DNA of 64,000 nt from a virus: the IMG/VR virus record IMGVR_UViG_3300045996_003734, positions 1-64,000 of that record, one strand, 5' to 3'. The notes beneath the pieces were generated by a model that searched no databases, was not told the DNA's origin, and saw only the letters and a list, made by a program, of their open reading frames with translations. Every line of letters starts with the position of its first letter. The first letter of the stretch is position 1. The position numbers and the translations under genes are program-made. Shown here piece by piece: positions 8,792-64,000 of the stretch.

Positions 8792-9143
8792 CGCGCACCT
8801 CCGAGGTCAGCTCCCGGGCGAGCCGGAGCACGTCGGTCGCGCGCTTGTCCCCGCGGTCCATGGCGGCGAGCTCCCTGCCGATCAGGTCGAGGCGGGCGCG
8901 GAGCTCGGCGGCGCAGAGGGGGGCGGGCGCGGCGCCCCTAGCGTCGCCCGACAGCTCTTGGAGGTCCGTCCCCAGCTCGTGGGCCTGGTCGGCGGACATC
9001 TCGACCTCGGTCCCGTCCACCACCATGACGACCGAGTCGCCCTGGACCTGGAGGACAACGGCGAGACCCTGGCGGGCCGGCGGGACGACAGCGAGGCTCG
9101 GCATCCGGCGCCGCGGCCGGAACGGAATGACGTCCGCACTCAT
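8784..9143 (-). CDS. Hypothetical protein downstream of integrase
   Basis: This 119-residue protein has an ATG at 9143 overlapping the integrase TGA (ATGA), so it is co-translated with the integrase. It has a basic N-terminus (IPFRPRRRM), a beta-rich centre (GLAVVLQVQGDSVVMVVDGTEVEMSADQAHELGTDLQEL) and a helical C-terminus. No family recognised. Coupling to the integrase suggests, without proving, a recombination accessory or simply an early-operon gene. Confidence 0.5.
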   Translation of the reverse strand: MSADVIPFRPRRRMPSLAVVPPARQGLAVVLQVQGDSVVMVVDGTEVEMSADQAHELGTDLQELSGDARGAAPAPLCAAELRARLDLIGRELAAMDRGDKRATDVLRLARELTSEVRGG

Positions 9144-10531
9144 GACGCCTCCGAGCGCGCGCGGCGCGTGATAGCCGTGACCGCTACCTCGCGCGGTGGT
9201 GCCGCGCCGAGGTGCTCACGAAGCGCTACGTCAAAGGCTTCCGATTCTGTACGCGCGTCCAACGCTGCATCGGACTCCAGAATCCCCGGGGATAATGGGG
9301 GTTCCGAGTCATCGCTAGACTCGTCCCCTTTCCCGGAATCGCCTGAGCTTTCCTCAGTTACGCGTGGTTCGAGTCCTTGAGTCGGAGCCCAGTTACTCGC
9401 AGATTTCGAAGACGCGTGCAACGCCGCGTCTAACGGTTGGACGGGGGTCGCTGCTGGTACCGGCAGGCACAGGACCACCGCGCAGAACTCCGACCAGTCG
9501 CGCGTCGTGTAGACGTCGATGATCTCCTGCTTCGGGTTGTGCGTGATCAGCTCCACGATGCGACGGTCCGCGCCGCCGCGCTGGGTGAGCGTGATGAACG
9601 TGTGCCGGGTGCTGTGCACCGAGCGGTTGTCGACGCCGGCCGCCTTGCAGGACCGCAGCCACATCTTGTAGGCGCTCGATCGCGTCATCGGCGAACCGTC
9701 TGCCACGGGGACGATGGCGTCGTCGGGACCGGGCTGGCGCAGGAAGTGGAGCGACCAGCGGGCGCGCCAAGCCCTCAGGACCTCGGCGAGGAATGGGTGG
9801 ACAGGCGCGACACGCGGGCGCTCGGTCTTGAGCACGGAGTCGACGTACTGCCGGACCACGTTCATGGCGCCGAGCGGCTTGGGGAGCAGGTCGTAGTCGC
9901 CCCAACGAAGCCCGCAGACCTCCCCGAGCCGGAGGCCCAGGAAGAATGCGAGGGCGTTCCAAACCCGCTCGCGCTCGCCCACCACCTCGCTGACCAGCAA
10001 CTCGAACTCGGCCGGCGTGTAGGGGGCGCGCTTCTTCCCAGATCGCTTGAGCACGCCGCGCGGGACGACGTACGGGCTTGCTGCCACGACCTCCTCGATC
10101 GCCGCGTCGCGGAACATCACCCGCACCAGCGCCATCAGGTTGGTGATGGTTTTGGGGGCCAGGGTGCCTTGGGCCTTGAGCTCCGCGATGAGCTTGAGGA
10201 CGTGCTTCGGTCGGACATCCGACATCGGCAGGTTCGCGAACCAGGACCGCGAGAGCACGTGGCCGCGCATCGCGACGCGGTCGAGGTCTGCCGCTCGGTT
10301 GGTGCGACCTGCTAGCCAGAGCGCCGCGTAGGCGGCCACGCTGGACTCGCCGGTCATCTCACCCGGGCGGAAGGTCCCGTCCTTCACCTCGCGCTTGCGC
10401 TGGCGGTCGAGCGCCTCGGCCTCGCGCTTGTTCGGGCCGACCAGCTCCCAGTGCGGCTTGCCGCCCGGCCACGACGTGAGCACCCCATACATGACCTTCC
10501 CACCCTTGCGCTTACGCGGCACGACCGCCAT
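9140..10531 (-). CDS. int: Tyrosine-recombinase integrase
   Basis: This 463-residue integrase would catalyse phage insertion and excision at attP/attB. The order is: an N-terminal arm-binding region (~1-60), a core-binding SAM-like domain (~65-160), then a catalytic domain. The catalytic domain shows Arg201 in FLGLRLGEVCGLRW, the H306-S-T-R309 box, His331 in LITHNPK and nucleophile Tyr341 in IDVYTTRDW. Residues ~350-463 form an unusual Ser/Glu/Asp-rich C-terminal extension without predicted catalytic parts; most relatives end soon after the tyrosine. The gene starts inside the small HTH gene upstream, so both are one transcript. The attachment site is expected within about 1 kb upstream or downstream; a tRNA-Trp 3' end faces it at 11312. 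Confidence 0.92.
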   Translation of the reverse strand: MAVVPRKRKGGKVMYGVLTSWPGGKPHWELVGPNKREAEALDRQRKREVKDGTFRPGEMTGESSVAAYAALWLAGRTNRAADLDRVAMRGHVLSRSWFANLPMSDVRPKHVLKLIAELKAQGTLAPKTITNLMALVRVMFRDAAIEEVVAASPYVVPRGVLKRSGKKRAPYTPAEFELLVSEVVGERERVWNALAFFLGLRLGEVCGLRWGDYDLLPKPLGAMNVVRQYVDSVLKTERPRVAPVHPFLAEVLRAWRARWSLHFLRQPGPDDAIVPVADGSPMTRSSAYKMWLRSCKAAGVDNRSVHSTRHTFITLTQRGGADRRIVELITHNPKQEIIDVYTTRDWSEFCAVVLCLPVPAATPVQPLDAALHASSKSASNWAPTQGLEPRVTEESSGDSGKGDESSDDSEPPLSPGILESDAALDARTESEAFDVALREHLGAAPPREVAVTAITRRARSEAS

Positions 10532-52423: not shown

Positions 52424-53554
52424 TCAGGTGCTGAGCACGTCCTTGATGAGGCCGCCGGCGATGTTCGTCCCGAAGAACGTGGTCTCGCCGAAGCCGGCTT
52501 CGAACATGGTGCCGCCGTTGATGCCGCGGCCCTGCGGGATGTACTCGTTCGTCACGACGCCGGTGCCGCTGCGGCCCTTGGCGCGGAACGTCCAGCTGGT
52601 GGCGGTGCGCTTGCCGTCGCGCGGTAGACCCGGCGCCGGGTTCGACACCAGGACGACGTCGTCGCCGAGGATGTACTGCAGCGCGCCGCCAGCCGCCGGG
52701 ATACGGCGGGCCGGGCAGATGTGAATGGTCGGCATGCCGACGATGTTGAGCTGCTGGTACCCCTGCACGTCCGCAGCCTGGGCGATCTCCGGCTTGGGGC
52801 CGGCGGTGCCCATCGTGGTGTTGATGTACGCGCGCACGTTGTTGTCGGACAGGAACCAGTACGCGACGTCGGGGTTCATGCCGATGTCGGTGATGGGCTG
52901 CGCCGACGCGAGGATGCGGGCGTGGATGTCCGCGCGAGGGTCCTTGGTCGAGCCGTTGTCCCACTTGAAGTTCGTGGTCAGCGACGTGCGGTTGTTGGCG
53001 TTCCAGTTGTTGAGGGTCGTGAGCGCACCGAACACGCGGATCTCGCGCGACAGGTACAGCTTGTTCATGACCATCTCGCCGCTGGCCGCGCGCACGTCGT
53101 AGGCGTCGACCGCCTCGTTCTGCGCGCCCCACGGGATGAACGTCGCCAGACCGTGCTCGAAGGTCTGGTACTGCGTGGTCGCGCTGGCGTGCGCGATCTC
53201 GTTGATGGCGCCTTGCCGGCCCACCTCAGTGGGCACGTACTCGAACATGTTCTCGAGCGCGAAGTCGCGGCGGTTGCCCTTCTCCTTGTCGACCAGCACC
53301 ACCGGGGAAAACAGGTCCGCGCAGTAGGCGAAGGGGCTGTAGCCGCCGAGGTAGGTGTCGAGCTCGCGCGCCTGGTCCCCGACCTCTGCCGGCGTCACGG
53401 CCATGAGCACGCGGGTGCCGGCCGCGCCGACGCCATCCACGTTTTCGGTCAAGGTGAAGAAGCGATGGCCAGGAGGCGCACCGTTCTGATTCGAGAGAGT
53501 GTCGATGGCGAGCGGAAGCCCGTTGAAACTGGGCTGTCGGAGGGCTGCGTTCAT
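52424..53554 (-). CDS. Major capsid protein
   Basis: 376 residues, one of the best-placed genes: after protease/scaffold and decoration, before gp36. It has HK97-type alternation of strands and helices (YQTFEHGLATFIPWGAQNEAVDAYDVRAASGEMVMNKLYLSREIRVFGALTTLNNWN, then IARILASAQPITDIGMNPDVAYWFLSDNNVRAYINTT, then VSNPAPGLPRDGKRTATSWTFRAKGRSGTGVVTNEYIPQGRG), ending ETTFFGTNIAGGLIKDVLST. It forms the icosahedral shell. Confidence 0.85.
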   Translation of the reverse strand: MNAALRQPSFNGLPLAIDTLSNQNGAPPGHRFFTLTENVDGVGAAGTRVLMAVTPAEVGDQARELDTYLGGYSPFAYCADLFSPVVLVDKEKGNRRDFALENMFEYVPTEVGRQGAINEIAHASATTQYQTFEHGLATFIPWGAQNEAVDAYDVRAASGEMVMNKLYLSREIRVFGALTTLNNWNANNRTSLTTNFKWDNGSTKDPRADIHARILASAQPITDIGMNPDVAYWFLSDNNVRAYINTTMGTAGPKPEIAQAADVQGYQQLNIVGMPTIHICPARRIPAAGGALQYILGDDVVLVSNPAPGLPRDGKRTATSWTFRAKGRSGTGVVTNEYIPQGRGINGGTMFEAGFGETTFFGTNIAGGLIKDVLST

Positions 53555-54047: not shown

Positions 54048-54800
54048 TCAGAGCGCCAGCTGGCCCGTGCGGATGAAGCCGCTCGCGGCGCGGACCTGCG
54101 TCTGCAGCGGCAGGTCCTTGAAGCCGGGCGTCTTGTCCTTGTGAAACGCCGCGCACTTCTCGATTTCGTTGCGACCGGGGTAGGCCGCGAACAGCTGAAC
54201 GTGCGCAGGCGGCGCGCCCGGGGCCCCGACGGCAGGAGCCGACGCCGGCGCGGGAGCGGCGGGCACCACGACGCCGTTGAGCAGCTGGACGCCGTTCTGT
54301 CCGGCGACGAGGCTCTGCGAGAGCAGCGCCTTCGCTGCGTCGGGCCTCGGCAGGGGGTACTGCGCGTAGAACGCCGCGAGCTTGGTCTCCCGCTCCTTGG
54401 GGTCGTCCACGTTGCAGGCGAGTCGCGAGGTGAGGAGCAGCGGCTTGAACTTCGCCGCGGTGTCGCCGCTCAGGCCCATCGATGCGGCGATCTGCTCGAC
54501 CTCCACCTCGGCCTCTTTCTTGTCCGCCGCGCCCAAGCGGTCGCGAGCGGCAGTCAAGCCGGCTAGGTACTCGTCGGCCTTCTTGGCCTTCTCGATGGTC
54601 TTGGCCGCGTCGCCGAGCAGCGCGGTCATGTCGTCAGACTCGAAGAGCCCGAGCAGCTGATCGAGCGTGTCGCCCTTGACCTTGGCCTTCTCGGCGGCAG
54701 CGAGCAGCACCGGCTCGGAGTCGCGGCAGTTGAACAGGTCGGCAAGCTTGCCGAGCAGGGCGGTCGCGAGAGCGGGAGCAGGGGCAGCGGGTGCGGTCAT
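54048..54800 (-). CDS. Nested scaffold protein (Mu gpZ-like internal start)
   Basis: An in-frame ATG at 54800 is preceded by GAGG eight bases upstream and would give a 250-residue protein (MTAPAAPAPALATALLGKLADLFN...) identical to the C-terminal half of the protease. In Mu, the scaffold Z is made exactly in this way from gene I. Its helical, acidic composition suits a capsid scaffold. Confidence 0.6.
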   Translation of the reverse strand: MTAPAAPAPALATALLGKLADLFNCRDSEPVLLAAAEKAKVKGDTLDQLLGLFESDDMTALLGDAAKTIEKAKKADEYLAGLTAARDRLGAADKKEAEVEVEQIAASMGLSGDTAAKFKPLLLTSRLACNVDDPKERETKLAAFYAQYPLPRPDAAKALLSQSLVAGQNGVQLLNGVVVPAAPAPASAPAVGAPGAPPAHVQLFAAYPGRNEIEKCAAFHKDKTPGFKDLPLQTQVRAASGFIRTGQLAL

Positions 54801-55676
54801 GGTGTTGTCCTCGGGGGCCGTTGGCGGCGAAGTGCTCGGGTCTGCAACGCCCATGACGAGCTGACCCGCCGTCGTGAGAATTTCGTCCGAGCTCGCGAGC
54901 ACGCGCAGACCGAGCAGGCGGCGCACCGAGTCCACGAGGTAGCCAAAGCCATCGGGGAACGCGGCCGACGTCATGCCGTTCGCGACCGCGTTGCGCAGCG
55001 TCTCGATCTCTACGGCGACCTCCGCCGCGGCGGCGTCTCCCGGCAAGCCGAGCAGATCGCGCAGGCCCACGAGCGCCTCCTCAGCGCTGTCGGCCTTGCC
55101 GTAAACGCTCACGCTGGCGGCGATCGGCGCCATGCCCTTGATGAAAGGGTGATTGGTGAAGGCGATGCTGGTGAGCAGCGCGCCGATCGGCTTGCCCGTT
55201 GCCGCGTCCTTCGCGCTCGGCCACACGGCTACGCTGGTCGACAGGTAGCCGCCCGCGCGAATCTGCTCTCGCGCCTGGTCGCTGAGCAGCGTGAGCGCCC
55301 ACAGCTCGGCGCCGTTCTCGCCCTCGCGCAGCTGCAGCTCCGTCGCCCACGCCGGAGCCGGAGCGCCCGTGGAAGGCAGCGTACCCTCGGTCGGCGCCAT
55401 CTCGCTCGCGTGTTCGTAGTCGTACGGCACAACGCGCTGCGTGCCGACGCCGTCGGGCCCCGGGCTGTACCAGGGGTTCGCGTGGAAGTTCGCGATGATT
55501 TGTTCGAACGACTTCCGCGTGAATTCGACGACGCGGCCGCTCGGGTGGCCCTCCCACTTGCCCTCGCGGGCGACCTGGATCCAGACGGCGCCGTCGTTCG
55601 CGACCTGCTCCGCGCTGAGCTTTACGGGTACGCCGAAGGCGCGGAGATGGAGCTTGGTGTCATTCTTGCGAGCCAC
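54048..55676 (-). CDS. Phage prohead protease/scaffold fusion (Mu gpI-like)
   Basis: 542 residues. The protease domain (~1-200) is recognisable from VVEFTRKSFEQIIANFHANPWYSPGPDGVGTQRVVPYDYEHASEMAPTEGTLPSTGAPAPAWATELQLREGENGAELWALTLLSDQAREQIRAGGYLSTSVAVWPSA...GALLTSIAFTNHPFIKGMAPI, the Mu I protease signature. The C-terminal ~250 residues form an acidic, helical scaffold (LLGKLADLFNCRDSEPVLLAAAEKAKVKGDTLDQLLGLFESDDMTALLGDAAKTIEKAKKADEYLAGL). The scaffold part can also start internally at 54800. It processes prohead proteins during maturation. Confidence 0.85.
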   Translation of the reverse strand: MARKNDTKLHLRAFGVPVKLSAEQVANDGAVWIQVAREGKWEGHPSGRVVEFTRKSFEQIIANFHANPWYSPGPDGVGTQRVVPYDYEHASEMAPTEGTLPSTGAPAPAWATELQLREGENGAELWALTLLSDQAREQIRAGGYLSTSVAVWPSAKDAATGKPIGALLTSIAFTNHPFIKGMAPIAASVSVYGKADSAEEALVGLRDLLGLPGDAAAAEVAVEIETLRNAVANGMTSAAFPDGFGYLVDSVRRLLGLRVLASSDEILTTAGQLVMGVADPSTSPPTAPEDNTMTAPAAPAPALATALLGKLADLFNCRDSEPVLLAAAEKAKVKGDTLDQLLGLFESDDMTALLGDAAKTIEKAKKADEYLAGLTAARDRLGAADKKEAEVEVEQIAASMGLSGDTAAKFKPLLLTSRLACNVDDPKERETKLAAFYAQYPLPRPDAAKALLSQSLVAGQNGVQLLNGVVVPAAPAPASAPAVGAPGAPPAHVQLFAAYPGRNEIEKCAAFHKDKTPGFKDLPLQTQVRAASGFIRTGQLAL

Positions 55677-55711: not shown

Positions 55712-56026
55712 CTAGCCGCCGACGAGCTCGTCGGGCTGCCCCGCGCGGCGCCGCACGAGCTTGCCGTCCACGATGGTGACGACCTCGTCGCGGTCTTCAC
55801 GCGTCAGCGCGTCGTCCACCGCGGCGTCGTTCTCCTTGCCGGCCTTCGTGCGGATGAGCTCGTTCGCGCGAGCCATCACCTCGGTGGGCTTGGCGACCAG
55901 GCGGAAGAACAGGCGCACGCCGTCGGGCGTGAGGCCTCCGGTGCGCTGGTACTCGGCGAGCTGCCGCGCAGCGGCCTCCACGTCATCGCGTGGAGGCGCG
56001 CCCTTCGGGAGCAGCGGGGCCGTCAT
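55712..56026 (-). CDS. Small head-region protein
   Basis: 104 residues (EAAARQLAEYQRTGGLTPDGVRLFFRLVAKPTEVMARANELIRTKAGKENDAAVDDALTREDRDEVVTIVDGKLVRRRAGQ). It is helical with a short C-terminal strand pair, coupled (ATGA) to the MuF gene. Function unknown; small genes here can help portal or protease assembly. Confidence 0.55.
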   Translation of the reverse strand: MTAPLLPKGAPPRDDVEAAARQLAEYQRTGGLTPDGVRLFFRLVAKPTEVMARANELIRTKAGKENDAAVDDALTREDRDEVVTIVDGKLVRRRAGQPDELVGG

Positions 56027-58782
56027 CCGGCCCCCAGCATTCGCGCCTGAACCTTTGCCAACTCCTTAAGCATTTCTTCCTTCTGCTCGGCCGTCAAGCC
56101 GAGCTCCCGCACCCACTCCGACACACCCTCCGCCCCGCTACCGCTCGAGCGAAGAAGCGCCGCTCTTTCGTGCGCTTTCGCCATCAGCTCCAGCGCCTCC
56201 TCCGAGCCGATGCCCTTCAGCTTTTGGAGCCGGTACCGGATGGCGTTGATCTCTCCGGAGTACGCCATGCCCGCGTCCGAGAGCTTCAGCTTCGGTACCA
56301 GCTGGCGCATCACGCGGCGCGCCGTGAGCTCGGTCCCGATCTCCTCGACCACCACGCTGTGCGGGGTGACGTCGTGGAGGTTGCTGCCCGAGAGGCTGTG
56401 CACCTCCTCGTGCACCATGATGCGCAGGCCGTCGAGCTCCTTCCGGATCTCGGGCGTGAGCGTCTTGATGGGTCCGGAAGAGATGCGCTGCATCGCGCGC
56501 CGCGCGCGGTCGACGACGTCGGGCGAGTAGGTGACCTTGGCCGTGCCTGGCTCGAACATCGCCTCGAAGCCGTGCACCGCCACGTCCTCGCCCGAGACGG
56601 TCATGTCGCCGAGCACCGCGTCGCGCGCCTGCGGCACCGTCTCCCGCACCAGGTCGCGGAGCGCAAGGCGCGCCTCGGCGCCGTTGGCGAGCTGCCCGCT
56701 TGCCGTCCGCTCGAGCGCGGCGTTGAAGCGTCCGGGCAGCGCCGCGCGGCGCTCGGCCGTTGCGGCCTGCTGCATCGCAGCGCGCGCAGCCTCGAGCTTG
56801 CGCTGCGCCTCGGCCTCCGCGGCGGCCTTCGCGAAGTGGTCGGCAACCCGGTCCCGCTTCGCCGCGCTCTTCTTGAAGTACGCCTTGATTTCCTCGTACT
56901 TCGGATCCCCCGGGGCGACGTCGGCAGACATCGGGATGAGCCCGCCGTCCCCGTTCCCTCGCGCTCGCAGGAAGGCCTTGCCGACCTGCTCGCCGTCCAC
57001 CTCGAGCATCGCCAGGTCGCGCACCCGAGGCAGCGCGTCCACCGCCTCGGCGGGGATGTGCGGGAACGCCTTTTTGAACTGGCCCTTGAGGTTCTTGAGC
57101 TGGGTTGGGTTCGTGTCGAAGCCAGCGCGCGCCCAGACGTATTGGCCGTCCCACGCGGCCTCGAGCTTGATCTTTTTGACGCCCAGCTTCTCGTACTGCT
57201 CGAGCTGGTTGACGAGGATCCGGCTGCCGATGCCCGAGCCTTGGTGCTCCTTCGCCACCCGCAGGTAGCCGTGGTGCACCACCATGTCGCCGTTCTTCTC
57301 GAGCTTGTAGTCGCGCTGAACGGTGGCGACGTACTTCCCCTCACGGTCGACGATGCGCGCCTTGAGGTCGATGGCGTTGGACGTCGCGCTGATGCGGAAG
57401 TCGTCTAGCCGGTGCCCGTCGTCGAACGTCGCGGGCGAAACGAGGGCTTGGTACTCCTCGGGTGAGAGCGCCCGGCCAAAGCCCTTCTGGCTGACCGCGT
57501 GCAGGTGCTTCAGCTCGCTCGCCTCGAGCTCGATGGCGGCCGCCGTGAATTGGGCGTGGGTCGCTGGCGCAGCGGCGACCGGCAGCGGCACTGGAGGCAG
57601 CCGGATGGGCGGCGCCGGCGGCGCTGTGGACGGCGTGGGCAGCTCGATTGCGGGCGGCGGCACGGGGCGCGGGGGCGGAGCACGCACCGGCACAGGCGGG
57701 CGCTGCGGTGCCGGCGGCGGGGCGAGCGCGGCGGCCGGCACGCTGATGAGCTGGCTGGTGCCGGACTCGAAGCCGGGGTCCGGCAAGCCTTTGGGGACCG
57801 GGCCCACCTCGATGCCCATGCGCTTGAGCCACGCCAGCGTGCGCGCGATGACGCGGCAGCGGCAGTTGAAGCCGAAAGGCGGGTAGGCCAGCTTCCAGAA
57901 CGGGTGATTCGCCGGGAGCACGATGCCGTGCGCGCGCTTGTGCGTCTCGCGCTGGCGCGCGTCGGTGACGCCTCGGATCTGCCAGTACGGCAGCGCGGCC
58001 AGCACGGCGGGTTGGCTCATCTCGGCGCGCCGCCCGCTCGCCACGGCGCTCATGCTGTTCGTGCGGAAGATGGTCTCGACGTGGCTCGGGTTGTCTGGCG
58101 TCCAGCCCGCCGTCTTCAGGCGCTCCTTGGCGAACTTGCGGAAGTCTCGGAGGTTGGCGCCCTTCGGTGTGCTGCCGGGGGTGCCGGGCCGCCTGCCCTG
58201 CCCGTCGCGCAGCTGGCGGACGAGCTCGGCCTTGGTGGCGTTGAGCAGCTCCTCCTTGGCCATGCCGGCGACGGTGAAGGCCTGCTTCCGCGCACCCTCC
58301 TGCATCGCGCGAAACGCCGCCGGCGGCACGACCTTGCGCTGCTCGAACTGCGCGATCGCGGTCTCGCCCGGGAGGTGCACCAGGCCCGGCCGGCGCCGCA
58401 CCGCGAACGTTGCCGGCGCCAGCTCCACGTCGTGCTCGCGCTCCCACTGCGAGTCGAGCGCACCGAGCATCAAGCCCCGCAGAATGGTCTGCTCTATCTC
58501 CTTCGCGAACGCGCCCACGTCGATGCGCGCGCGCTCGAGCGCGCTTCGAATTTCGAACTCCGTTTCGCTGTCGCCGATAGCCTCGAGGACGGCCTCTCCC
58601 CAGGCGGCCGTGATCCGAGTTGCCGCAGCCACGCCGTCTTCGACGAGCGCCTCCGGAGAACCGTTCGGGCTGTCGGGTTGCTCGGCGCAGCAGACGTGCT
58701 CGCCCAGCAAGTCCTGAGCGTTGAGCGAGGCGTAGAACCGCTCGAGCTCGAGGAGCTCCGCGCGCGCCTGCTCCGCGTTCAT
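56023..58782 (-). CDS. MuF head morphogenesis protein fused to GNAT-like and HExxH metalloprotease-like domains
   Basis: 919 residues, far longer than a bare MuF/gp30 protein. Residues ~60-330 are the MuF domain (VTDARQRETHKRAHGIVLPANHPFWKLAYPPFGFNCRCRVIA, with HPFW near 293 and CRC near 303). A Pro-rich linker follows (~345-400). Residues ~420-560 contain a GNAT-like core with HQGSGIGSRIL (~513-523, matching the acetyl-CoA loop). After a helical, Arg/Ala-rich region comes HEEVH (791-795) with Glu near 814, a zincin-like HExxH...E set in LRIMVHEEVHSLSGSNLHDV...VVVEEIGTELTARRVM. MuF fusions to toxin or enzyme domains are known as phage polymorphic toxins. Here the extra parts may be injected or act in the lysogen. 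Confidence 0.82.
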   Translation of the reverse strand: MNAEQARAELLELERFYASLNAQDLLGEHVCCAEQPDSPNGSPEALVEDGVAAATRITAAWGEAVLEAIGDSETEFEIRSALERARIDVGAFAKEIEQTILRGLMLGALDSQWEREHDVELAPATFAVRRRPGLVHLPGETAIAQFEQRKVVPPAAFRAMQEGARKQAFTVAGMAKEELLNATKAELVRQLRDGQGRRPGTPGSTPKGANLRDFRKFAKERLKTAGWTPDNPSHVETIFRTNSMSAVASGRRAEMSQPAVLAALPYWQIRGVTDARQRETHKRAHGIVLPANHPFWKLAYPPFGFNCRCRVIARTLAWLKRMGIEVGPVPKGLPDPGFESGTSQLISVPAAALAPPPAPQRPPVPVRAPPPRPVPPPAIELPTPSTAPPAPPIRLPPVPLPVAAAPATHAQFTAAAIELEASELKHLHAVSQKGFGRALSPEEYQALVSPATFDDGHRLDDFRISATSNAIDLKARIVDREGKYVATVQRDYKLEKNGDMVVHHGYLRVAKEHQGSGIGSRILVNQLEQYEKLGVKKIKLEAAWDGQYVWARAGFDTNPTQLKNLKGQFKKAFPHIPAEAVDALPRVRDLAMLEVDGEQVGKAFLRARGNGDGGLIPMSADVAPGDPKYEEIKAYFKKSAAKRDRVADHFAKAAAEAEAQRKLEAARAAMQQAATAERRAALPGRFNAALERTASGQLANGAEARLALRDLVRETVPQARDAVLGDMTVSGEDVAVHGFEAMFEPGTAKVTYSPDVVDRARRAMQRISSGPIKTLTPEIRKELDGLRIMVHEEVHSLSGSNLHDVTPHSVVVEEIGTELTARRVMRQLVPKLKLSDAGMAYSGEINAIRYRLQKLKGIGSEEALELMAKAHERAALLRSSGSGAEGVSEWVRELGLTAEQKEEMLKELAKVQARMLGAG

Positions 58783-60383
58783 CGCCCGCCGATGGTCGTG
58801 AGCAGCTTCAGCACGTGCGCGGCGCGAACGAGCTGCAGGGGGTCCCGGTCGGTGAACGTGTCTTGGTCAGGCAGGCCTTGGCCGTCATCGCCAAGGGGCG
58901 ACGCGCCGCCGGCCCCGCTCTGCTGTCCGAATCCACCACCACCGCCGCCGCCGCCGGGCGACCCGAAGCCGCCCGCGGGCTGCGGCGCCTGCTGCACCAC
59001 CAGGTCCTCGGGTTGCGGCTCGGCAAAGCCCACGCGCTCGTACACCTCCGAACGCTTGAGCGGGATGCCCAGGCCGAACACCTTCGCGGTGCGCTCGATC
59101 TCCTGCCCACGCGTCGGCGTCACTTCGTACTTGAGCTCGATGCGGGGCGCGTGATCGAGCGCCTCCGCGCCGAAGTTCAGGACGATGATGTCCGCGCCGA
59201 GCTGCTCGGTGAGCAGGTCGGAGATGTCCCAGCCGTCCGCCGCGTACACGCTAGACTGCTCGTCCTGCCCGACCTCGTCGCCGGCGGAGCCGAGCGCGCC
59301 CGGCTTAGCGTCGTTCGTGCGCGTGGTCCCGGAGACCAGCTTGCTGATCTCGTCGTTGCATTCCGCCGCGACTTCCTTGTGGATGGTGCCGGAGTTGTGG
59401 TCGGGAGTCTCGAGCTGCAGCTTGACGCCGGGCGGCATCACGCCGGTGGCGTTCGCTCCGAGCGCGTCGGCGGAGATGGCCGCCTCGTCCAGCGTCTCCT
59501 GCTGGATCTGACCGTCCTCAGCCCAGACGATGCGCCAAGGCTTGCCGAACACCTCCAGCAGAATCAGGCGTTCTCGCCACGAGAAGCGCTTGAAGAAGCT
59601 GAAGTACATGCCGCGCGGACCGAAGCCCTCGCGCTCTGGGTAGTCGTTGAACTGCTGCGGCGTGAAGCTGATGAACTTGAACGGGATCTGCCGCAGCTCG
59701 AGCCCGCGCCGCTCGAAGGCGCCACCGGCGAAGCTGTCGTCACGCACGCGCAGCTCGCGCTCGGGGCCGAAGCTCAGCCGCCGCGGATGAATCCAGTTCA
59801 GGCTGTCGATGCGCCACTTGACCGTGCTGCCGGCGGGGTTCTCGCGCCAGACCTTCTCGAGCGCGGCGCGCCCGTGGCACTGCGCCCAGTTGAGCCTGCG
59901 CACCTGCTGGCGCCAATTTGGGATCCAGGCGAGCTGCTGGCGGACGACGTCGGCGTAGAGCTTGGCCTTGCTTGGGTCGATGCCGTCGCCGGAGGCCGCG
60001 ATCACGTTGGGCTTGATGCTGGCGAGGGCTCGCACCCGCTTGCCCACCGCCGACGTGAAGTGCGGGTCGATGGCCAGCGTCTCGTACTGGAGGTCGGTGA
60101 GGTCCCGCATGTAACCGAGCTCCGCCGAGCGGACGGCTTGCTCGATGAACTCGGGGGTGAGGGAGCGGCCGTAGTACCGGCGGTTTTGCTCGGTGAGGGG
60201 GAGCTCCCCGCCGAACATCGATTCCTGCAGGTTTTGCCGGGCGACGAACTGATTGCCCGCAGCGTCGAAGCGGAGGCGGATGCCCTGGCGGGCAGCGCGC
60301 TCGATGGCGGCGATGCGCTGGCGTTCCTCGAGCGGGGCTCGCTGGAGGATACCCTGCCGGGTGTGCAACGGCGCCAGCTTCAC
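58779..60383 (-). CDS. Portal protein (Mu gp29/DUF935-like)
   Basis: 534 residues from a GTG at 60383 in a GTGA overlap with the upstream gene. GGELPLTEQNRRYYGRSLTPEFIEQAVRSAELGYMRDLTDLQYETLAIDPHFTSAVGKRVRALASIKP followed by RRLNWAQCHGRAALEKVWRENPAGSTVKWRIDSLNWIHPRRLSFGPERELRVRDDSFAGG is the DUF935 portal pattern. The C-terminus (GGGGGGFGQQSGAGGASPLGDDGQGLPD) is glycine-rich. It forms the dodecameric packaging and exit ring at one vertex. The next gene overlaps by ATGA. Confidence 0.9.
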   Translation of the reverse strand: MKLAPLHTRQGILQRAPLEERQRIAAIERAARQGIRLRFDAAGNQFVARQNLQESMFGGELPLTEQNRRYYGRSLTPEFIEQAVRSAELGYMRDLTDLQYETLAIDPHFTSAVGKRVRALASIKPNVIAASGDGIDPSKAKLYADVVRQQLAWIPNWRQQVRRLNWAQCHGRAALEKVWRENPAGSTVKWRIDSLNWIHPRRLSFGPERELRVRDDSFAGGAFERRGLELRQIPFKFISFTPQQFNDYPEREGFGPRGMYFSFFKRFSWRERLILLEVFGKPWRIVWAEDGQIQQETLDEAAISADALGANATGVMPPGVKLQLETPDHNSGTIHKEVAAECNDEISKLVSGTTRTNDAKPGALGSAGDEVGQDEQSSVYAADGWDISDLLTEQLGADIIVLNFGAEALDHAPRIELKYEVTPTRGQEIERTAKVFGLGIPLKRSEVYERVGFAEPQPEDLVVQQAPQPAGGFGSPGGGGGGGGFGQQSGAGGASPLGDDGQGLPDQDTFTDRDPLQLVRAAHVLKLLTTIGGR

Positions 60384-60721
60384 GAGCCGCGCCTCCACCA
60401 CCGACGCGCAGGCGCCGGCGGCGGCGCGGCCTGCGCCGCTCGCGCCGCCTGCTCGTACTGCGCTCGCGCCCCGAGCTCCGCCGTGCGCAGCTGCGCGAGC
60501 TCGCTCTCGACCTGGGCCGCAAGCACCTCGATGCGTGAACACCACCGCTCAGTCAGCGCCCAAAGGAAGGCCGAGCGAACGGCGCCCAGCGGGCCGCCTG
60601 CCTTCGCTTCCGCCGCCCGCCACGTCGCTGCAGTCCGGCGCAGCTCGCCCACGAGGCGCTCGGCAAGCTCTCGCCTACCGGTTGCCAAGCCAAGGGAATG
60701 AGCCAGCTGGGTCGCGTCCAC
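60380..60721 (-). CDS. Hypothetical protein upstream of portal
   Basis: 113 residues from GTG at 60721 (DATQLAHSLGLATGRRELAERLVGELRRTAATWRAAEAKAGGPLGAVRSAFLWALTERWCSRIEVLAAQVESELAQLRTAELGARAQYEQAARAAQ). Helical with a long coiled coil, then Pro-rich and RRWWRR end. Coupled to the portal; may be an assembly or oligomerisation factor. No family recognised. Confidence 0.5.
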   Translation of the reverse strand: MDATQLAHSLGLATGRRELAERLVGELRRTAATWRAAEAKAGGPLGAVRSAFLWALTERWCSRIEVLAAQVESELAQLRTAELGARAQYEQAARAAQAAPPPAPARRWWRRGS

Positions 60722-60759: not shown

Positions 60760-63270
60760 TCAGGAGTCTTCCACGGTCGGGTCGCGCTCGAGCTCGGTCA
60801 CCCGGACGGTGAGATGGGCGTCGGCGCCGAGCGTGTTTGTGACGCTGAGGCGCAGGTTGTTGCCGCTAATCGAGGCGTTAACGGTCAGGTTCACGGAGTC
60901 GCCCGAGGTGAACAAGCTGGACTGCACGGGCGTGCTCGCGGCGCCGCTTCCGGAGCGCTGGGTCTCAACGTGCACGATCTTCGTGCCTCGGTCGCCGGAC
61001 GCATCCTCGGCCAGGACCTTCACGCGGAAGAGGTAGCGGGTGGACGGCAGGAGCGGCACGTCGATGTTGGCCGTGGTGCCGGCGCTCGCCACGTCCACGC
61101 TCGACAGCGAGCCGACCAAGCCGCCGATTCCGTCGTTCTCGATGGCCGCGGCTCCGATCTTGGTGTTCGTGCCGCCGTCGCTGAACGGCGAGCCGTTCCC
61201 CGAGATTCGCGTCTCCGCGATGCGCGTGCCGTCAGCGGAGCCTTCGATCTCGATGCCGTTCTGGGTGTTGCCGGTGACGACGCTGCCGCCGCCGATGAAG
61301 GCTCGGTCTCCGCGGATCTGGATGCCGTCGTCGGTGTTGTCGCGTGCCGTGACGCCGAGGAGGGAGGCGTCGTCGGCGCCGGCCGCAATGAGGAAGCCGT
61401 CGGCGTTGCCGTAGCTCGTGGTGCCGACGACCTTGTTTCGCAGCCCGTTCAGGATGACGCCGCGCGAGCAAGCGGTGAGCGAGCCACCTTGCACGACCGC
61501 GTCCGGCGCGTTCAGGTCGATGCCGCTCGAGAGGCCCGCGGACCCCGTCCCTGTCGCGTCGAAGCCCTTTACCTCGCAGAACACGGCCGTCGGCTCAGTG
61601 GTCAGCCCGGCCACGGCGCAGGCCTCCGCCGTGCAGTCGGTGACCTTCGTGCGGGGCCCGCGGATGCGGAAGCCGGAGCCCACCGCGGTGAAGGCGTTGC
61701 AGTCCGTCAGCCGCGTGAGGTCCGCCTCGCTGTCGACCAGGAAGGCCTCGTCGCCGGTGTCCTCGACGTCGACCCCGATCACCTTGTTGCGCTTACCGTA
61801 GACGGTCACGCCGAGGAGCATGTCCTTCACGTAGCCGCCCTCGACCGTGACGTGGTCGGCCGCGATGTAGACGCCTAGCGAGGTGGCGCCGTCGTTGCCG
61901 CGGCAGTTGAAGTTGCTGAGGTGCGCCCTGTGCCCGCCGAAGCCGACGCCGGGGTCGCCCATCACACCCTCGCGGAAGCGGATGTAGTGCCCGTCGGGCG
62001 GCCCGTCGCTGGTCCAGACGTTCGTCACTTCGCACGGTCCCCGGATGTCCAAGCCGGCTTGCTCGGTCAGCGTCGTGTCGAGGCCCCAATGGCGCAGGTC
62101 GAGGTGCGCCAGGGACATCGAGCCGTTGCCGTTGCCGACGTTTTTCATGTCGATGCAGTCGGCGCCGGTGTGGTGGATGTACAGGTGGGAGAGGTCCACG
62201 CGCTTCTTGTCGCCGCCCTGCAGCCCCAGGCCGTAGCCGTAGCAGTTCTTGATCTCGACGCGGTGGATGCGCAGACCGTCGCAGCCGCCCGTCCCCGTAC
62301 GGAGACCGTGGACGGACGAGGTGTTGCCCGAGCCCGGGTTCACGAGCTGGCTGTTGCCGTCGAGAGTGAGGTCGCTGATCTCGATCTCGGTCGCGCCGTC
62401 GATGTTGAACAGGTTGGCGTTCGCGCCGTTCGCCGCGCGGATGATGGTCTTTCCCCGCCCTGCTCCGCGAAGCGTGACGTTGGCCAACCCGGTTAGCGAG
62501 AGGCACACGTCATCGATCGCGGACTCGTTCACCAGGTACGCGGCGCCGAGCCCGTCGGGCACGTAGACCAGGCCCGCTCCAGCGGTGTTTGCGGCCGCGA
62601 GCGCCGCCTGAAGGGCCACGCGGTTGGCCGCCGCGAGCGCCGCCGGCGACGCTCCGTACGTGCCGAGCTTCACGTTGAAGTAGGCGAATAGGTCGCGCAC
62701 CGCGATGCCGCCGTCCTTCAGCTCCTTGCCGTTGGCGCTCTGGAAGACCGGCACGCGGTCGACCACGGCCGAGGCCGGCCCGAGCACGTCACCACCGCCC
62801 GGAGGCACCACGTCCACGTCGTCGTTCTGGTTGTCAGCCCAGCCGCCCGCCGAGTACTGCGTGCCCTCGGTGGCGATAATCTTGCGGCGGCCGAGCGCGC
62901 TCCGAACGCACACCAGGCGCTCGAACACGAAGTCCGCGCTCGGTCGGTCGTTCCGGTCGAGGCCTCCGTTCACGAGGCAGCGCACCACCCAGGAGGCCGC
63001 ACCGGTGGCGGGAACGTTGAGCGAGACCGCCGTCGCCGGCGTCGCCGCGTCCACCTTCTGCCCCGTGCTCGAGCCGACCAGCGTGAGCAGCGCGGCCCCC
63101 TTGCTGGCCCTCGGCGACTTGTCGTCGCTGGCGCTGTACACCTCGTACGTCACCCGCCGCACTACGCCGGTGAGCGCCTCGAGCTGGAGCACGAGCGACG
63201 CGCCGCTCACCGTGTCGTAGCCACGCGCCGAGCTCGGGCTACCTTGGATGGTGAAACGGGCGAGGTTCAC
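60760..63270 (-). CDS. Tailspike-like right-handed beta-helix protein
   Basis: 836 residues from GTG at 63270, conserved with the left-end copy (1-1122). Residues ~1-130 are a beta-rich virion-binding part (TGAASWVVRCLVNGGLDRNDRPS). A linker follows (~150-220), then a right-handed beta-helix (~230-720) with regular NVTLRGAGRGKTIIRAANGANANLFNIDGATEIEISDLTLDG-type coils resembling pectate-lyase/PbH1 repeats. A C-terminal beta domain is at ~730-836 (TRYLFRVKVLAEDASGDRGTKIVHV). Such spikes bind or degrade polysaccharides. Its place between terminase and portal is unusual, as spikes normally end the tail cluster. Confidence 0.8.
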   Translation of the reverse strand: MNLARFTIQGSPSSARGYDTVSGASLVLQLEALTGVVRRVTYEVYSASDDKSPRASKGAALLTLVGSSTGQKVDAATPATAVSLNVPATGAASWVVRCLVNGGLDRNDRPSADFVFERLVCVRSALGRRKIIATEGTQYSAGGWADNQNDDVDVVPPGGGDVLGPASAVVDRVPVFQSANGKELKDGGIAVRDLFAYFNVKLGTYGASPAALAAANRVALQAALAAANTAGAGLVYVPDGLGAAYLVNESAIDDVCLSLTGLANVTLRGAGRGKTIIRAANGANANLFNIDGATEIEISDLTLDGNSQLVNPGSGNTSSVHGLRTGTGGCDGLRIHRVEIKNCYGYGLGLQGGDKKRVDLSHLYIHHTGADCIDMKNVGNGNGSMSLAHLDLRHWGLDTTLTEQAGLDIRGPCEVTNVWTSDGPPDGHYIRFREGVMGDPGVGFGGHRAHLSNFNCRGNDGATSLGVYIAADHVTVEGGYVKDMLLGVTVYGKRNKVIGVDVEDTGDEAFLVDSEADLTRLTDCNAFTAVGSGFRIRGPRTKVTDCTAEACAVAGLTTEPTAVFCEVKGFDATGTGSAGLSSGIDLNAPDAVVQGGSLTACSRGVILNGLRNKVVGTTSYGNADGFLIAAGADDASLLGVTARDNTDDGIQIRGDRAFIGGGSVVTGNTQNGIEIEGSADGTRIAETRISGNGSPFSDGGTNTKIGAAAIENDGIGGLVGSLSSVDVASAGTTANIDVPLLPSTRYLFRVKVLAEDASGDRGTKIVHVETQRSGSGAASTPVQSSLFTSGDSVNLTVNASISGNNLRLSVTNTLGADAHLTVRVTELERDPTVEDS

Positions 63271-63288
63271 GGGCTCGGTATGCGAGCC
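62149..63288. repeat. Right copy of diverged duplication (spike region)
   Basis: Gap-free counterpart of 1-1140; mostly synonymous differences (compare 121-180 with 62269-62328). The two copies differ in the sequence directly upstream of the spike start: here it is only 20 bases before the terminase stop, whereas the left copy carries two extra genes. Confidence 0.95.
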
Positions 63289-63308
63289 GGGGGCCGCTCT
63301 GACCCTCG

Positions 63309-64000
63309 CTAGTAGCCGCCGGTCGCGACGCCCTTCCGCGCCCCCCGCGCCGGCACCTTGGGCTTGCTCGCCGGCTGCTTGTCCGCGAAGTCCCAGTTGT
63401 GCACGGTCGAGTCCACCTGGTCGTCCTCGGCGCCGTCCACGCCCGTAAACCGCTCGTGCTCCTTGAGGTACGGGCCGATCCACTTGCCCTCATCCCAGCA
63501 CTCGAGTTCGCGTAGCAGTTTCTGCAACGCCACCGAGTCCAGGGTGGGGTCGTGGTCGAGCGGGACCTGGAAGCGCCCTTGCCCCCAAGCGGCAGCGGCG
63601 GCTTGCGCGGCTGAGAACTTGTCGACGGTGCGCGGCACTTCCACGAGCCGGAGCTTCGGATTCAGGCGGCGGAGGTTCTGTGCGACGCTCTGCCCCTGCC
63701 CGCCCTGGGTCTCGATGACGATGGGCACGCCCGGCCAGCTCGCCTGCAGCACCGCCAGCACGCGCACGACGTCCGGCGTCTCGAGCTGCATGCGGTAGCA
63801 GCGCAGCACCTGGCCGTAGAGCATGCCGGTCAGCACCACGCCCTCGGGGCTTTCCCAGGGCGCTCGCCAGTAGCAGCAGATGGTGATGGCTGTGTGGTCG
63901 GCGCTCGTCTTGGCGGTGCCGGCGGCGTCCACGGCGATGACGATTTGCCGGCCCTGCCGGATGGCCTGCCCCATGTAGCGGCGCGGCTCGCCGAAGACCG
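63309..64000. repeat. Right copy of diverged duplication (terminase region)
   Basis: Counterpart of 1810-2501; it runs beyond the window edge. Protein-level changes are few and conservative, so this second terminase is likely functional. Confidence 0.93.
63309..64000 (-). CDS. terL: Second phage terminase large subunit, C-terminal part (runs off window)
   Basis: About 230 codons of C-terminal sequence in an open frame reaching the window edge (upstream residues FGEPRRY precede MGQAIRQGRQIVIAVDAAGTAKTSADHTAITICCYWRAP). It contains the nuclease-domain motif VIAVDAAGTAKTSADHTAI and ends VPARGARKGVATGGY. Closely related to, but distinct from, the left-end gene at 1810-3354. It heads the late operon that extends from here to 27.3 kb. 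Confidence 0.93.
   Translation of the reverse strand, partial: VFGEPRRYMGQAIRQGRQIVIAVDAAGTAKTSADHTAITICCYWRAPWESPEGVVLTGMLYGQVLRCYRMQLETPDVVRVLAVLQASWPGVPIVIETQGGQGQSVAQNLRRLNPKLRLVEVPRTVDKFSAAQAAAAAWGQGRFQVPLDHDPTLDSVALQKLLRELECWDEGKWIGPYLKEHERFTGVDGAEDDQVDSTVHNWDFADKQPASKPKVPARGARKGVATGGY

Follow-up and report, generated by a model that had tools for sequence, protein, structure and literature searches.

Introduction

What do phage head proteins inject together with the genome, and how is the cell that produces them spared? The question is raised by a gene in a 64,000-nucleotide stretch of virus DNA (hereafter the window; positions 1 to 64,000 of the 109-kb IMG/VR record IMGVR_UViG_3300045996_003734), for which an initial annotation made from the letters alone proposed a portal-adjacent MuF capsid protein that unites an acetyltransferase-like and a metalloprotease-like domain. 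MuF polymorphic toxins carry C-terminal enzymes, about 20% of them metallopeptidases, and usually have a small open reading frame (ORF) behind them that is presumed to confer immunity (Jamet et al. 2017, PMC5576092). Polyvalent proteins unite multiple enzymatic domains in one chain associated with the virion, the zincin being the commonest of them (Iyer et al. 2017, PMC5512222).

Organization of the head locus

The ORF list and its translation place a 919-residue product at 56023-58782 on the minus strand, and re-reading the translation bore out the length, strand, QGSGIGS loop, HEEVH motif and following glutamates of the initial annotation. The head operon runs in the order portal, MuF gene, 104-aa ORF, Mu I-type protease and major head gene. 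The ATG start of the MuF gene overlaps the stop codon of the portal gene, and an ATGA overlap joins the 104-aa ORF, present as a single copy in the record, to the end of the MuF gene. The features are as follows:

58779-60545, minus strand: Mu-type portal gene, directly upstream of the MuF gene (PF06074, E 2.1e-48)
56023-58782, minus strand: predicted MuF-GNAT-zincin minor head protein gene, 919 aa (ORF, PF04233, phrog_220, GNAT and zincin HMMs)
57763-58782, minus strand: MuF (Mu gpF-type) head domain, residues 1-340 (PF04233 core 233-312, CRC motif)
57508-57762, minus strand: proline-rich linker, residues 341-425 (sequence)
56848-57507, minus strand: GNAT acetyltransferase-like domain, residues 426-645 (alignments, AlphaFold, Foldseek against the PDB, HMM)
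56638-56847, minus strand: charged helical linker, residues 646-715 (sequence)
56026-56637, minus strand: gluzincin-like domain, residues 716-919 (alignment, AlphaFold, HMM, hhalign to MPTase-PolyVal)
55712-56026, minus strand: small partner ORF, 104 aa, candidate immunity protein or inhibitor (homologous family 3' of MuF-zincin genes)
54048-55676, minus strand: Mu-like prohead protease (I) gene, next downstream (PF10123, E 5.6e-17)
52424-53554, minus strand: major head protein gene (phrog_1005, E 5.8e-21)
9140-10531, minus strand, and record position 70884-71408: two tyrosine recombinase matches

The portal-adjacent MuF assignment proved sound: the protein matches PF04233 above threshold (E 1.2e-11, 45.8 bits against a cut-off of 29.6) and phrog_220 (E 7.6e-45), and its MuF domain is about 30% identical to Mu/D108 gp30. 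The product is a Mu gpF-type minor head protein with a GNAT and a predicted gluzincin cargo domain. Phage Mu gpF (gp30) and Mu-like heads share with the window both the MuF domain and the gene order portal, F, protease, capsid, whereas the window protein has extra C-terminal enzymes and the slot after F, occupied by a neck protein gene in Mu_3F6, holds the small ORF. Between the window and its near-identical sibling contig, the proline-rich linker is the fastest-diverging segment (dS 0.40, dN 0.05), whereas the charged helical linker has zero substitutions.

The GNAT domain

Short motifs are weak evidence for either enzyme, since 20,000 shuffles of the 919-aa protein yielded the acetyltransferase motif A, [QR]xxGx[GA], in 84% of cases and HExxH in 4%; both calls were accepted on homology, as judged by HMMs of relatives, beyond the motifs. 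For the GNAT domain, an HMM of relatives only, from which both the window protein and the almost identical sibling sequence had been excluded, scores the window at E 3.8e-35. QGSGIGS occupies residues 514-520 (57223-57243) and AWDGQYVWARAGF lies in the same domain at 57118-57156. Motif A, QGSGIG in the window, is kept in most relatives of the alignment, and the family has a further signature near strand 5, W-D-G-Q-Y-V-W-x-x-x-G-F or near variants (GGYTWARAGF in plasmid members).

The AlphaFold model (pLDDT 76), predicted from an alignment of viral rows only, comprises helices and four antiparallel strands, with the QGSGIGS loop where a helix begins and then strand 5; model and Foldseek together identify strands 2-4, the P-loop helix and strand 5 of the GNAT fold. 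Against the PDB it gave 23 matches with E<=0.001, nearly all GNATs at a probability of about 1.0 and N-terminal protein acetyltransferases among them, so the GNAT topology anticipated by the initial annotation was recovered. Pfam matches fell below the curated cut-off (PF13508, 24.0 bits against 27, a domain fragment). By fold and family HMM, residues 426-645 are a genuine member of the GNAT superfamily that belongs to no single Pfam family. Relatives were found in L014, L005, L016, L066 and L009/L010 (L numbers denote the loci compared) and in proteins from four plasmid records, while tblastn with the window domain returned zero matches among 50,697 phage records. A protein of Micromonospora plasmid CP108834 (L017:1838-4477), annotated as 2'-5' RNA ligase family and located between phage minor head and capsid genes, has a C-terminal end of the same GNAT family.

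The gluzincin-like domain

HEEVH corresponds to residues 791-795 (56398-56412) and is followed by glutamates 813 and 814, with EEIGTE at 56329-56346. An HMM built without the window scores this domain at E 8.2e-17. H791, E792, H795, E813, E814, T817 and E818 are common to all 15 other members found (a 13-row alignment, then three found later), and in the 13-row alignment they are invariant together with Y841, so that the metalloprotease-like set read from the letters is retained in relatives. The catalytic signature of the family is HExxH, some 17-20 residues, then EExxTE.

The AlphaFold model (pLDDT 75, pTM 0.77) places HEEVH within helix 777-797 and the EEIGTE glutamates on the next helix, 807-828, preceded by a short strand pair. 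An HExxH helix followed by an ExxT/A helix (E814..T817) is, in sequence and model alike, the predicted gluzincin arrangement. The fold expected for this domain was therefore recovered in its helices, but Foldseek gave no significant match in the PDB, where the best-ranked entries were helical noise. In BFVD the top match was an IrrE-like zincin with a probability of 0.94 but an E-value of 0.11, and the list also held SprT-like and M48 proteins, none significant by E-value. Kinship with ImmA/IrrE found no support in profile comparison (hhalign Prob 4). Against MPTase-PolyVal (PF18818), in contrast to at most 0.5 Prob for 30 column-shuffled or reversed control profiles, the family reached Prob 84-90 and E 2e-6 to 7e-6. 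No zincin family of Pfam was matched at threshold and PF18818 gave no match at its curated cut-off. Profile similarity thus points to a relative of MPTase-PolyVal (ArdC-type) below the membership cut-off, in which respect the domain differs from polyvalent-protein zincins.

The C-terminal domain of ArdC is a metalloprotease of the MPTase-PolyVal kind, in which the metal ligands are H201, H205 and E229, with E228 positioning H205 (PMC7213743); these residues correspond to H791, H795, E814 and E813 of the window. ArdC/PF18818 and the window share the HExxH helix, the EE-doublet glutamate helix, ExxT/A and a small strand region before them, whereas the window family is attached to MuF or portal proteins and has a longer C-terminal helical part. 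We regard residues 716-919 as a divergent gluzincin and predicted zinc-dependent protease. That the HExxH domain is instead catalytically dead or a non-protease fold, as the missing PDB match might suggest, seems highly improbable given catalytic residues that are invariant across very divergent members, substitutions with pN/pS below 1 and the profile match to MPTase-PolyVal.

A degenerate motif was needed to find further members: searches of Pfam, PADLOC and PDB sequences gave nothing useful, tblastn with the window, L039 and L031 zincins found no match in 50,697 phage records, and a viral scan with the single sequence found one near-identical contig only. Scanning 2.9 million viral contigs with a DNA pattern for HExxH(S/T) then EExxTE returned nine stretches, namely the sibling contig, a chance match that was discarded (L029) and seven in which a long ORF has the motif close to its C-terminus: a single MuF phage type (L023/L025/L026), two further MuF loci (L027, L028), a portal protein (L021) and L022. 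With a profile scan we found six more, L031, L032 and L036-L039, each of them a PF04233 protein.

Exchange of cargo among MuF proteins

The initial annotation had considered the combination of acetyltransferase and metalloprotease uncommon, and indeed we saw GNAT and zincin together only in the window, its near-identical contig and L066. The 1015-aa protein of L066 (2633-5680) has the order MuF-zincin-GNAT-ART, with zincin and GNAT in the opposite order to the window and an ADP-ribosyltransferase (ART) domain (PF03496, E 1.1e-8). Polyvalent proteins include RimI-like GNATs, one family of which is described as usually lying beside an ART domain (PMC5512222), and the GNAT-ART neighbourhood of L066 resembles it. 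A second, unrelated 69-aa ORF overlaps the end of the L066 gene.

Elsewhere the two enzymes occur apart. No other recognised cargo accompanies the zincin in at least ten further MuF proteins (L025, L028, L031, L032, L036-L039, L071, L072) and in one portal protein (L021), and a GNAT is the sole recognised cargo of the MuF protein of L014; since each stands alone in this way, both look like autonomous effectors. In L021 (7666-9702, minus strand) the zincin is fused to a PF06381 portal protein, and in L022 (881-1747, minus strand) the same family occurs in a phage contig; the small partner ORF is absent from both.

The nearest MuF relative, L004, is 53% identical to the window over 318 residues and has no GNAT, zincin or small ORF; its C-terminus differs from that of the window and has no Pfam or PHROG assignment. 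To the eye this domain (L004:7051-8013) looks kinase-like. L028 and L072, for their part, are 78% identical in MuF but 32% across the zincin region. These two comparisons indicate that the C-terminal cargo is exchangeable, and the combination of a conserved MuF N-terminus and an exchangeable C-terminus is a feature of polymorphic toxins. The set as a whole reveals a shuffling of GNAT, gluzincin and ART cargos among MuF proteins.

A small ORF accompanies the zincin

Inspection of downstream ORFs revealed related proteins of 59-104 aa behind the zincin genes in the window, L025, L028, L031, L032 and L036-L039. Leave-one-out HMMs score them at 1e-8 to 1e-22 (1.6e-11 for the window copy). Substitutions in related pairs give a pN/pS of less than 1, their synonymous sites being almost saturated. 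Between the window and L032 the small proteins share 44-47% identity, whereas the zincins are only about 25-36% identical and the MuF parts not detectably alike. The family has no Pfam counterpart and no convincing PHROG, and tblastn with the L039 copy found no match among 50,697 phage records. Relative to the family, the window copy has an additional C-terminal tail of about 40 residues.

Scanning with a motif of the small ORF itself, the zincin not being part of the query, found three new phages (L066, L071, L072), each with a MuF-zincin gene upstream; in L066 the small ORF sits about 1 kb further downstream. Four other matches (L067-L070) lay in unrelated frames and were discarded. Altogether the small ORF lies beside 12 of 15 zincin loci (12 of 13 MuF-zincin phages) and beside none of 21 loci without a zincin, which include L004 and seven isolate MuF phages (L077-L083), counts that represent non-independent samples, as seven phages fall in one MuF clade and the loci were gathered via the zincin or the small ORF. 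It was not found beside the portal-fused zincin of L021, the zincin of L022 or the divergent MuF-zincin of L027.

Perhaps the small ORF belongs to the head operons of these phages in general, independently of the zincin, and its association with the zincin reflects shared ancestry, given that single clade of seven. We think this unlikely, because the ORF spans five MuF lineages (the window; L031/L032; L025; L066; and the L028/L036-L039/L071/L072 clade), most of which show only weak similarity to one another in BLASTP, or none that it detects. L005, with a MuF akin to that of the main clade, has neither zincin nor small ORF; the same holds for L004, and the seven isolate MuF phages lack the small ORF.

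Alternatively, the zincin could serve capsid maturation by processing head proteins, with the small ORF as a scaffold-like or assembly factor. Such a role would fit a MuF-zincin gene that lies in the head operon with the small ORF overlapping its stop codon. It is nonetheless very unlikely in our view: the operon has its own Mu I-type protease gene, and L004 keeps portal, protease-like and capsid genes without zincin or small ORF, so that head assembly can do without both.

A probable virion-delivered effector and its candidate partner

We lean towards the view that the gene encodes a Mu gpF-type head protein whose GNAT and C-terminal gluzincin are packaged, injected and act on host proteins, with the small protein as the cognate partner of the zincin. 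The protein would be built into the head near the portal and enter the cell together with the phage DNA; there the GNAT may acetylate and the zincin cleave host proteins, a mode of action already suggested for MuF polymorphic toxins and polyvalent proteins. The small protein, putatively an immunity protein or protease inhibitor cognate to the zincin, would shield the producing or lysogenic cell, and perhaps the head proteins, until delivery. Building on the observed domain identities, conservation of catalytic residues, modular C-terminal exchange and the link between small gene and zincin, we infer packaging, injection, activity and targets as well as the role of the small protein, which could instead be structural or chaperone-like. 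The small ORF, which the initial annotation had passed over, is the most informative feature for this effector reading.

Self-cleavage offers another account, in which the zincin would autoprocess the MuF chain before or after injection, for instance at the proline-rich or coiled linker, and so free the GNAT or itself, the small protein timing the cut. Processing has been proposed for polyvalent-protein zincins alongside attack on proteins, with P1 DdrB as a precedent (PMC5512222), and the L066 layout, with the zincin between MuF and the GNAT-ART part, would suit the release of effectors. Yet the window zincin lies C-terminal to the GNAT, and where the zincin comes last and as the sole recognised cargo, as in at least ten MuF proteins, there is no other recognised effector to free. 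Autoprocessing alone therefore fails to account for such proteins, and we consider it rather unlikely as the main explanation. A virion-delivered double effector, whose zincin would have a dedicated inhibitor or immunity protein, is the most economical reading.

The window resembles the MuF polymorphic toxins of Jamet et al. (PMC5576092) in its MuF N-terminus, exchangeable C-terminal cargo and small ORF directly downstream. It differs in having two enzymes per chain, one of them a GNAT, a cargo not mentioned in PMC5576092, and in a partner ORF that forms, unlike in that description, one homologous family across phages. Neither the order MuF-GNAT-zincin nor a dedicated small partner gene is described in the accessible text on polyvalent proteins (PMC5512222). 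In the prophage system Bxa an ART toxin is accompanied by two immunity proteins (PMC11699363); as a prophage toxin with cognate immunity it is a possible analogue of the window's candidate pairing, although delivery domain, enzyme and immunity families are all different.

MuF toxins of this kind are thus already known, and metallopeptidase cargos have been listed before, but we found no defined enzyme-partner pair for such cargos in the open-access literature searched; what appears to be new here is a small partner family that tracks the zincin. Occurring on the heads of many otherwise different viruses, zincin and small gene look like a transferable pair of weapon and safety catch. It is quite possible, if just short of an even chance, that the MuF-zincin and its 60-105 aa neighbour constitute a previously unnamed, horizontally exchanged pair of protease and immunity protein or inhibitor in phage heads, delivered by virions, with some phages stacking GNAT and ART effectors on the same head protein. 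If true, this would define a metallopeptidase toxin-immunity family delivered by virions. Our analysis supplies its catalytic signature, examples from a number of uncultivated phages and a directly testable small partner gene, so that both the cargo injected from the head and the protection of the cell that makes it could be addressed by a small co-expression experiment.

The two integrase-like ORFs in the 109-kb record suggest that the virus may be a temperate phage. Between terminase and portal the window also has a 907-aa beta-helix, tail-spike-like gene (60760-63483, minus strand), and a large tail-like ORF likewise lies upstream of the portal in L004.
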